Below are positions 43,241-48,097 of a stretch of DNA of 64,000 nt, one piece after another; the stretch's first letter is position 1, and each line of letters starts with the position of its first letter. Location of the stretch: the NCBI GenBank assembly GCA_900095095.1, contig FMBT01000384.1, positions 1 to 64,000 of the forward strand, read 5' to 3'. Made by a program: the position numbers and the translations under genes. This stretch comes from Fragilariopsis cylindrus CCMP1102 (taxonomy: Eukaryota; Bacillariophyta; Bacillariophyceae; Bacillariales; Bacillariaceae). The notes under the pieces are model-generated. The model had not been told where the DNA came from. It ran no database searches and saw only the letters and a program-made list of their open reading frames with translations.

Positions 43241-43419
43241 ATTGTGAGGCATGAATCCAAAGGAAAGAACAAATACCAATGTATCGTCATGTCAACTGAT
43301 GATGGAGTTATGTTATGTTTTCTTTCGGAGCATCAATACAAGGAATGACTAATTATCAGTTTGATATCACGTGAAGTGGTGATGTCTGGATGTATGGTCT
43401 AATTTTCCTTTTCAGAGTA

Positions 43420-43850
43420 CGCATTGATCCGAGTGTCACATCCGGTTCCGTCCCTAGTTTCGAACCAAGTTCGTGGCCTAGATCAGTTCCAAGTCTCAAG
43501 CCAGGTCTTTCGCCGAGTGGGTTTCCTAGCTCTAATCATAGTGTTGATCCGAGTGAAAAACCCACTTCCGTCCTTAGCTTGGAACCGAATTCACTACTCA
43601 TTTCCATTCCAAGACTGAAGCCAAGCCTTTCGCAGAATGGTATTCCTGTTAGCTCTAATCATAGTTATGACTCGAGAGGCGCAACAGGTTCTGTCCCTAG
43701 TTTTTAAAACCGAGTTTGGTTCCAAACTGATGATCGAATATCAGTACAACAAGAAAAAAGCGTTGGAGAGCGTAGGATACTTAGTACAGTCCTTGGTTCA
43801 GCGCTTGGAGCTGGAAAGATCACCCAAGATTATATATGGGTAATATTAAG
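43420..43850 (+). pseudogene. Decayed PSxxPS-repeat surface-protein gene fragment
   Basis: The + strand at about 43420-43710 encodes a degenerate series (SGSVPSFEPSSWPRSVPS, LKPGLSPSGFPSSNHS, DPSEKPTSVLSLEPN). It has the roughly ten-residue Pro-Ser-x-x-Pro-Ser rhythm of diatom wall or surface proteins, and a near repeat of the SSNHS block 120 bp on. The frame then stops and a different frame carries the apparent continuation to about 43850. With no start, signal peptide or full repeat set, it is read as a pseudogene fragment. It directly adjoins the retroelement fossil, so it may have been moved or cut by it (inference). Confidence 0.45.
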
Positions 43851-44572: not shown

Positions 44573-46924
44573 TTAAATTTGAATATAATCATAGGTATAG
44601 TCGCATGTGCAGTTAGGGTTACTAGTATCATTTCTAAATACGACTCGTTCTTGAGACATCATACCTATAGACAGAAGAAAGAGAAGGAAAAAAACAAGAA
44701 TTGGAAATGAGAGGAGGATGATGATGATGATGATGATGAACAAAGTAATTGAAAAAAGGAATACGAGAATTACCTAAATCTTCGTGAGGTAAAATATGGC
44801 AATGAAGCATAATCTTTCCCGGAAATGTAGCAGGACGATATTTCATGACGGCAACGTCTTGATTTTTTGATTTAATCGTATCTTGCCAGTCACCTTTTTT
44901 TTGGTAGCAGTACAAATAAGAAAACAATTATATGTTAGCTGTTAATAAATACCATTAAAAAATGATTAAAAATCAAAAGTATTTACCCAGTTTCAATACA
45001 TACCATTTTTCCAATATCCGTTCTCACTTGTTGTGTCATTTTCGTATCCAGACTGGAGTTGAAAAGGATAAACATGTTGATGGTACGCATGCCCTTTAAG
45101 ATTACTGAGTGTTCTTTCGGCAACATCTCCGAACCTTACAGTGTGTACGTAACTATCTTCTTTAAATAGTCTATCGTTGAGAGTGAAAAGGGGTGGCGAG
45201 GTAGGTCCAACTGTTGCCATTTCAGTATTGCAGCTGCAGCCAGGAAAAGGGGGTTCTTCTTGAAGGTCTGTTAAGTAAGCAGGAAAATCCCATTCGAAAC
45301 CTATTGTAGGCCCCGGAGCAATAATAACTTCAGTTTGACCTGCTGGTAATACCGATTCAATTGTTAGCAAATCTTCTTCAATTTCAAAATGTTTTACAAT
45401 AAATGACCCTTCCGTTGGACATCGGACCATAATATCTGCTCTTCCACCAGCAGGGATGGGAAACAATTCAATACTTCGAGGATAATCTTTGATATAGATC
45501 CCATCTTTTGCAAGAAGAATCGTTTCGCATGGTCGGTAGCTGTCGTTTTCAGCTGACACAATCTTCAAATCAAGGGCCTCAGCTTCCCATCCAGCATAAA
45601 TAGTACGAAAACGATACCAATTACCGGGAATTATAGTTAAGTTTGGCCGGTATTTTCCATTGACAAGTCGGAAATCACCGCTGGTAATTTCCGGATTTGG
45701 TACAAGTTTAAATATCTCATCTCTTGCCAATGATGCAAAGAAATTAGACAATTCAGTTCTAAAATCTTGTACAACTAGTAAGATGTCAGTTGCATCTGTA
45801 ACTTCCTGTGGGATCTCAATAACAGCTGGATCATCTGGCACGATTATTGCAAATGCTGCACCTCCTCCGACTTGAATTGTAGACGAACCGTGTACATGAG
45901 GATGTGACTATATTTATTTTCAATAGGAAAGAGAAACAAATGCAATACGTTAGTGTGTGTATATCAGGTAAGGCAAGACAATACGATGTAATACAATTTG
46001 ATATGAATTGAAACCAACTGAAACGATTATGTGTTGAACGTACCCAATGCGTTCTTTTATTAGATTAAATCAAATCAAAAAAGGGAGGTGGGGAGGAAAA
46101 GATGAATTTGTTAGTATATGTTGTTGTGGTCTAGAGATGAGATGAGATGATATGTTGTACAGTTGTTCGTACCCTGGCATATGATCACTTGGAAAGGCAG
46201 AAGTGTATTCGTATGTACCACCACCTGGTCTGACATGGATATAAATATCATCGGATGGTTCTTCACCACTAATATGTCCTCCATGAAAATGTAAGTTTGT
46301 TGTATCAGGGATACCAAATGTATTATTTTTTTCAGGTCCTTGAACAGAATTAGGTTGCAATACTAAATTATTCTTGAACGTAATCTCTAAAACCTCACCA
46401 GGGTTTACAATAACTGTTTTTCCGGGCATAATCCCGCCAAATAAACGTGTCGTGAATTGCTCTACAGCAACTGTTTTATAATCCGCATAGTCCATTGTCA
46501 CAACAAATCGTCCATCTTCTGCATGCATTTCTTCTGGAAATGTAAGTTCACCATCAGATAATGGTGGAGTAGCAGTTGGAGGATCGGTGGTTGGTGATGA
46601 TGCCGGCTTACGTGTCGGCTTACGCGTCGGCTTCTTTTCAGTCTTCGAGTTTTTCTTATTTGATTTCTTTTTCTTGAGTAGTCTAAGGACGGTACCTTCT
46701 TCTTCTTCCTCTTCTTCTTGTCCTCCTTCATTTTGAATTTTTTTTAGAGTCACGATATTATCGGTATCAGTATTAACGCCAGGAACGAAGTCAGAAACAA
46801 AGTCCTCAACGGCACCGTAGTATCTTACTTCGGTGGTGTGATCGGCAACAACCGTGCCGTATCCTTCTTCATGGGAAAGTAAAAAGAGGGTCGTAATGAC
46901 CAAAACGGAAGTAGCGATACGCAT
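44573..46924 (-). CDS. Secreted multicopper oxidase (5 exons incl. 10-nt microexon, 625 aa)
   Basis: Exons on the minus strand: 46924-46173, 46053-46044, 45907-45004, 44893-44774, 44664-44573. All four introns (109-136 nt) are GT-AG and all phases fit. Multicopper oxidases oxidise phenols or metal ions (such as Fe2+ or Mn2+) and reduce O2 to water. Residues 1-28 are a signal peptide. A Lys/Thr/Pro-rich linker (about 84-122) precedes three cupredoxin domains. Copper motifs: LHFHGGH (211-217), THWSHPHVHG (252-261, its THW from the microexon), GHAYHQHVYPFQ (about 530) and HCHILPHEDLGMM (586-598), which carries the T1 Cys and an axial Met. The C-terminus NCTCDYTYDY is unusual. Substrate unknown; a secreted laccase or a ferroxidase in iron uptake are both possible. 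The full set of copper ligands suggests an active enzyme. Confidence 0.9.
46044..46053 (-). other. 10-nt microexon of the multicopper oxidase gene
   Basis: AACGCATTGG on the minus strand, bounded by ATAAAAG on the 5' side and GTACGTTC on the 3' side. Exon 1 ends CCAGG (phase 2) and exon 3 starts TCACATCC (phase 0), so direct joining would break the frame. The 10 nt restore it and give Gly-Thr-His-Trp before Ser-His-Pro-His, matching the family's copper motif. Confidence 0.85.
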
Positions 46925-47832: not shown

Positions 47833-48097
47833 ATGAAATCTGTTATCGTCGCATCCCTCATCGCATCCGCTGCTGCATTCGCACCAGTGGCACAAAAATC
47901 TTCCTTCACGTCATTGGCGGCATTTGAAGATGAACTTGGTGTCCAACCTCCACTTGGTTTCTTTGATCCATTAGGATTATTGAATGGTGATGATGATCAA
48001 GAATATTTCAACCGTCTCCAGATACACTGAAATCAAACATGGACGTATCTGTCAATTGGCATTCCTTGGACAAGTTGTCACTCGTGCTGGAATTTGA
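47833..48097 (+). pseudogene. Truncated fucoxanthin-chlorophyll a/c protein (FCP/LHC) gene
   Basis: The start encodes a textbook FCP leader: MKSVIVASLIASAAAFAPVA with the AAFAP cleavage motif, then SLAAFEDELGVQPPLGFFDP. After FNRL the frame shifts by one base near 48018-48022. The other frame continues RYTEIKHGRICQLAFLGQVV and TRAGI, the first pigment-binding helix with its Glu and His ligands, and then stops at 48095-48097. Helices 2 and 3, about 120 residues, are missing. So this is a 5' fragment of a light-harvesting gene, probably from an incomplete duplication. The leader is well conserved, so the event is not old. A short open frame to 48030 could still make a 65-aa peptide. Confidence 0.85.

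Follow-up and report, generated by a model that had tools for sequence, protein, structure and literature searches.

Architecture of the oxidase gene

The window analysed here, a 64-kb stretch of DNA from the diatom Fragilariopsis cylindrus, carries on its minus strand a gene for a predicted multicopper oxidase that is divided into five exons, one of which is only ten bases long. Exon 1 (46173..46924, minus strand; 752 nt) starts with ATG and has the 3' end ...CCAGG. It is followed by intron 1 (46054..46172, minus strand; 119 nt), which opens at GG|GTACGA, closes with AAAAG| and contains TACTAAC, a heptamer resembling a branch site (46110..46116, minus strand). The putative microexon AACGCATTGG (46044..46053, minus strand; 10 nt) supplies the last base of a Gly codon together with Thr-His-Trp. 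Intron 2 (45908..46043, minus strand; 136 nt) separates it from exon 3 (45004..45907, minus strand; 904 nt), which starts with Ser-His-Pro-His-Val-His and contains the third copper motif, HAYHQH. Beyond intron 3 (44894..45003, minus strand; 110 nt) lie exon 4 (44774..44893, minus strand; 120 nt), containing HCHILPHED, intron 4 (44665..44773, minus strand; 109 nt) and exon 5 (44573..44664, minus strand; 92 nt including the stop codon). A sister gene elsewhere in the genome has introns 2 and 3 at matching places, and both genes share the GTACGT donor and a CACTAAC in intron 2, which is 254 nt long in the sister gene. The sister gene lacks introns 1 and 4, and at the intron 4 site it reads AGGT.

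Joined, the five exons (46924-46173, 46053-46044, 45907-45004, 44893-44774 and 44664-44573) give an open 625-aa protein with no interruption, and the ten bases sit between two large exons of this gene. Their context on the minus strand reads ...TAATAAAAG|AACGCATTGG|GTACGTTC..., with AG before and GT after. Exon 1 ends in ...CAT ATG CCA GG (46173) and exon 3 begins TCA CAT CCT CAT GTA CAC (45907), and the spliced join encodes His-Met-Pro-Gly-Thr-His-Trp-Ser-His-Pro-His-Val-His. At the DNA level, the ten bases have the properties of a microexon: they form an internal exon no longer than 15 nt, lie between AG and GT and are retained as codons.

Statistical support for the ten-base exon

We enumerated all GT-AG arrangements leading from exon 1 to exon 3 with one or two introns, each no shorter than 40 nt; a middle exon could measure 1-400 nt, and junctions were confined to the interval from about 46330 to 45800. 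The frame stays open in 907 of these splice models (881 distinct proteins), 52 of which have a single intron. Models were scored with three profiles, built from a relative of the oxidase on contig C804 plus five bacterial relatives, from these plus the sister gene, and from the sister gene alone. The 10-nt model ranks first of 907 under all three (216.5, 447.2 and 769.2 bits), although the bacterial sequences in two of the profiles were found with two patterns, one of them the motif itself, which biases the evidence from the motif; the solved structures discussed below, Thermus laccases, were chosen independently of that pattern. The best single-intron model reaches 164.2, 384.0 and 697.8 bits in the same order, and one-intron models were rejected, the best of the 52 open ones scoring 52 bits below the microexon model under the profile that omits the sister gene. 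Second place under every profile goes to a model with the same microexon and an intron 1 donor 12 nt further downstream (206.5 bits without the sister gene). This alternative donor (46161/46160, minus strand, with the exon end at 46161) is in frame and would insert Tyr-Glu-Gln-Leu just before Thr-His-Trp. PGTHWSHPHVH is present in one of the 881 distinct model proteins, that of the 10-nt model. The preliminary description had placed a 10-nt exon at this position and had it encode the last base of Gly plus Thr-His-Trp ahead of Ser-His-Pro-His-Val-His; the AG/GT flanks, the open 625-aa chain and the top rank among the models bear out both the exon and its residues.

The 265-nt stretch between the two large exons was shuffled 20,000 times with dinucleotides preserved, and the pattern AG|N ACN NNN TGG|GT never arose. 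Over both strands of the 64-kb window it occurs once, at the microexon, where 0.28 would be expected, and 25 of 100 shuffles of the whole window contain it at least once. TACTAAC is found 9 times in the 128 kb of window sequence (both strands), or 0.008 expected per 119 nt. In intron 1, the branch A of this heptamer lies 57 nt from the 3' end, and the next AG downstream is the microexon acceptor itself. Comparing the six introns of the window and sister genes, we found CTAAC in five, intron 4 being the one without it, and the splice signals around the microexon are similar to those of the other introns.

Predicted protein and copper motifs

Pfam matches to PF07731 (Cu-oxidase_2; 52.9 bits, cut-off 20.4) and PF07732 (Cu-oxidase_3; 24.6 bits, cut-off 21) both exceed the curated cut-offs and thus identify multicopper oxidase domains. 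The closest solved structures are Thermus-type laccases (E 5e-23 to 1.4e-22; aligned residues 153/158 to 599), and this alignment is free of gaps from HMPGTHWSHPHVHG on, HMPG through THWSHPHVHG, a stretch at which the solved laccases read GTFWYHPHLHG. All four copper-motif regions are present (HFHG, HPHVH, HAYHQH and HCHILPHEDLGMM) with their His and Cys residues in place, as judged by eye from the alignments. The gene product is accordingly predicted to be a laccase/CueO-like multicopper oxidase. The four regions are common to the window protein, the Thermus thermophilus laccase 2xu9 and CueO 1kv7. Unlike these two, the window gene is split, and by eye its protein starts with a hydrophobic segment and includes a stretch rich in Lys and Pro/Thr; it also has Ser where the Thermus laccase has Tyr before His-Pro-His. 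The CueO equivalog model NF008205 gave 33.7 bits (NCBI cut-off 525) when the exon 3 and exon 1 frames were scanned separately, and we do not file the protein as CueO. A ferroxidase name was likewise set aside, as no support for it was found and the sequence does not imply iron oxidation. Residues linked to ferroxidase activity in yeast are described as not retained in diatoms in the excerpted text of PMC4460010.

Among the residues that the microexon encodes, Trp is the most constant in alignments with relatives. Thr is replaced by Met in the C804 relative and by Ile in one bacterial relative, and the His position is Phe in the Thermus laccase and Tyr in the C804 relative and five bacterial relatives. 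The copper ligands of the second motif are presumably the two His of His-Pro-His, downstream of the microexon, and we take it that the residues from the microexon include no ligand. On that assignment of ligands, the microexon completes the copper signature G-T-x-W-x-H-P-H and contributes no ligand to it. The earlier statement that the ten bases supply part of a copper-binding motif is therefore right for this signature in the second copper-motif region and wrong for the presumed ligands.

Sister gene and related copies in the genome

A search of the genome (67.9 Mb, 818 contigs) placed the sister gene on contig C56, with 67% protein identity to the window gene; for exon 1 the identity is 71% (aa 109-254). 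A further copy of the sister gene, on C138, has DNA identical to C56 over the 1,800 bases compared. At 755 nt, against 756 nt on C56, the C138 exon 1 is one base shorter, and its frame closes after 93 aa; the difference reflects either an allele or an assembly error. The sister exon reads CAT ATG CCA GGT ACA CAT TGG|GTACGT, so that PGTHW is unsplit and the intron follows Trp, and across the four codons from Gly to Trp the two genes differ by two synonymous changes.

Between window and sister gene, dN/dS is 0.284 upstream of the microexon (126 codons, aa 124-250), 0.281 downstream of it (367 codons, aa 255-625) and 0.346 over all 609 aligned codons, each value being an average across both lineages that would hide a recent loss of function in the window copy. 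The value of 0.281 beyond the microexon indicates that the downstream part has been retained as protein, and therefore that the ten bases, or a frame-equivalent, must be included. The synonymous divergence (dS about 0.66-0.75) implies that the duplication is not recent. The structure and codons of the sister gene are strong evidence that the ten bases are coding and that the preceding 119 nt are either an intron or an insertion.

The oxidase family extends to at least 12 contigs besides C117, some of which are probably alleles of each other. The C804 relative is a single open frame of 882 codons, and introns are lacking at all four places. A simple motif pattern finds the motif uninterrupted on six contigs (C804, C648, C565, C265, C534 and C709). 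On C56 and C138 it is uninterrupted up to Trp, and on C26 it is uninterrupted but altered; the same pattern gives no match on C297, C679 or C184, nor at a second place on C265. The copy on C26, a near copy of the C804 oxidase, matches in pieces only, with stops between them. Outside the diatom, a prokaryote genome scan returned 30 pattern matches and the five bacterial relatives, and two scans of viral contigs (8 and 102 pattern matches) yielded no relative.

Proposed splicing and origin of the microexon

The reading that we favour, with high confidence, is that the ten bases are a real coding exon that is normally included, in a functional gene for a laccase/CueO-like multicopper oxidase, and that a later gain of intron 1 set them apart. 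That the 119 nt of intron 1 are spliced out we infer from its GT and AG ends, from a TACTAAC with no further AG before the acceptor and from the exact restoration of codons. The microexon would be included in the mRNA, and its splicing would be constitutive. Since both flanking introns are short (119 and 136 nt), their splice sites are most likely paired across the introns, by intron definition. Introns 1 and 2 would be removed one at a time, and either order would leave the ten bases joined to a large exon; recognition across introns would also mean that the intervening exon need not be of a particular size. As the preliminary description predicted, skipping of the microexon shifts the frame. 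Translation would then stop after 271 aa, at a point 960 nt upstream of the final exon junction; retention of intron 1 gives 284 aa and retention of intron 2 gives 324 aa, and all three stops lie more than 900 nt before that junction. These truncated products are consequences of splicing errors and not evidence that the cell uses them.

The ten bases look like a sliver of exon left between intron 2, shared with the sister gene, and a copy-specific intron 1 ten bases upstream of it. Under this scheme, the ancestral exon would have ended with the codons for Pro-Gly-Thr-His-Trp at intron 2, a state that the sister gene would retain, and intron 1 would have arisen in the window copy beside an AGGT-like site ten bases further upstream, cutting off the last ten bases. 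In the sister gene the site of intron 1 is 1 nt from an AGGT and that of intron 4 is 0 nt from one (AG|GT), where six AGGT in 1,881 nt of sister coding sequence place 0.96% of positions that close; an AGGT at an intron site is, however, expected after loss as well as before gain. The intron-less C804 frame favours gain, although this gene could itself have lost introns. Roy and Penny are said to have described widespread intron gain in a diatom, in a work cited in PMC3488318. We consider a gain of intron 1 considerably likelier than its loss.

Three other readings were weighed against this one. The preliminary description had proposed that the microexon could act as an on/off switch, that is, a regulated cassette exon skipped under some conditions of iron or copper supply, leaving a truncated, unstable message and no enzyme. 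The frame shift and the position of the resulting stop are as such a switch would need, but nearly any internal exon not divisible by three would give the same outcome, and the sequence, which yields only the consequence of skipping, lends the proposal no support. No regulatory sign is apparent, the splice signals resemble those of other introns, the flanking introns measure 119 and 136 nt beside 110 and 109 nt for introns 3 and 4, and no microexon is present in the sister gene. Splicing exon 1 straight to exon 3 would further require a 265-nt intron, compared with 109-136 nt for the four inferred introns, although the sister gene has one of 254 nt. Precedents for such regulation come from Phaeodactylum, in which genes that undergo exon skipping drop in expression during nitrogen-free growth (PMC5859163), and from Trichoderma, in which Xlr2 has a glucose-dependent microexon switch (PMC11121469); as far as their excerpted text goes, these studies deal with neither iron, copper nor the window gene. 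We regard a regulated switch as very improbable. Slightly less probable still is that the 119-nt stretch is a gene-breaking insertion, the window gene a recent pseudogene and the microexon a coincidence. A dN/dS averaged over both lineages is compatible with this, but all 625 codons are open, the supposed insertion starts with GT, ends with AG and contains TACTAAC, and the number of motif codons equals that of the sister gene.

The remaining reading concerns history only and is compatible with normal inclusion: intron 1 would be ancient and lost from the sister gene, making the microexon the old state. Its absence from the sister gene is precise, as expected of a loss by way of a reverse-transcribed message, and the AGGT at the empty sites fits loss too. 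Yet loss would have to remove the non-adjacent introns 1 and 4 while sparing introns 2 and 3, which lie between these two; the gene on C804, the next relative, is one open frame lacking introns at all four places, and five further family contigs are uninterrupted at the motif. We therefore judge loss unlikely, though less so than the switch or the pseudogene, and continue with the gain of intron 1 as the preferred history. Regarding the source of the introns, a mobile-element (introner-type) origin of introns 1 and 4 was rejected, each matching only itself in the genome at E values up to 10 in a search that leaves out simple repeats and very frequent words. The starts of introns 1 and 2 are linked in register by a direct repeat of 13 nt, identical at 11 positions. 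An origin of intron 1 by duplication was also rejected, because beyond the shared donor the similarity does not exceed chance (reached by 5.8% and 9.0% of shuffles). Rfam gave no matches in the window at the gathering threshold.

Comparison with known microexons and intron pairs

The exon is small, but the suggestion that it is among the smallest that one would expect does not hold against published cases. Arabidopsis APC11 contains a constitutive 1-nt exon, shown by experiment (PMC4674806), which like the window microexon is internal and far below the usual size and is ten times smaller, and a study of ten plant species counts 2,398 exons no longer than 15 nt (PMC8831610). In plants, 9-nt microexons encode parts of protein signatures in invertases and AP2 genes (PMC8831610), and the window exon resembles them in size and in coding for a short run of residues within a conserved enzyme or domain signature. 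As excerpted, however, that study describes plant microexons that measure 9 nt, are supported by RNA and recur, whereas the window exon measures 10 nt, shifts the frame when skipped, is predicted from DNA and occurs in one of two sister genes (PMC8831610). Among the entries listed in our search of open-access literature, covering titles and the starts of abstracts, none concerned a microexon in diatoms or in multicopper oxidases.

A second comparison is with the near intron pairs of Drosophila, in which intron positions are separated by fewer than 32 nt (Lehmann et al. 2010, PMC2891723). The positions of introns 1 and 2 are 10 nt apart and the sister gene has only the downstream one; in both systems, one intron seems older and the other newer, the newer lying beside a proto-splice-like site. 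In the Drosophila pairs, the introns replace each other, whereas the window gene carries both (PMC2891723). Introns 1 and 2 are thus a coexisting pair and not a classical near intron pair, as both stand in one gene and are not mutually exclusive. In its excerpted text, the near-intron-pair study calls coexistence in one gene very unlikely and excludes candidates with both introns (PMC2891723). That such candidates had to be excluded implies that coexistence had been annotated before and that the window case is not the first (PMC2891723).

The coexistence of two introns ten bases apart is, in our view, a more unusual aspect of this gene than its ten-base exon. With a pair of sister genes in the same genome, only one of them carrying the extra intron that leaves a 10-nt exon, the case is a natural experiment for asking how efficiently the spliceosome treats a 10-nt exon between short introns and whether close intron pairs persist or are resolved. 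If the microexon is left out in some transcripts, the gain of intron 1 would in a single step have given the enzyme a copy-specific control that is absent from the sister copy. We hold only with low confidence the full proposal that a newly gained intron coexists with an older one ten bases away, with part of an active-site signature between them, and confers copy-specific control through skipping. Gene finders may also miss the ten bases and so predict a truncated or frame-shifted oxidase, a problem reported for plant microexons (PMC8831610).

Neighbouring loci

Two further stretches of the window flank the oxidase gene. The stretch at 43375-43704 (plus strand) holds a 110-aa open frame with a high Pro and Ser content and no Pfam match. 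At 47833-48027 (plus strand), the sequence encodes the N-terminal portion of a light-harvesting protein; the frame closes after 65 aa and by itself matches nothing in Pfam. Over 63 aa it shares 95% identity with a copy on C124, where a 210-aa frame is identified by Pfam as a chlorophyll a/b-binding protein (Chloroa_b-bind), and the N-terminal part of this protein has at least 27 matching places in the genome. The piece resembles a gene copy that has been truncated and broken, situated next to the oxidase gene; copies of the light-harvesting gene that look intact are present elsewhere.
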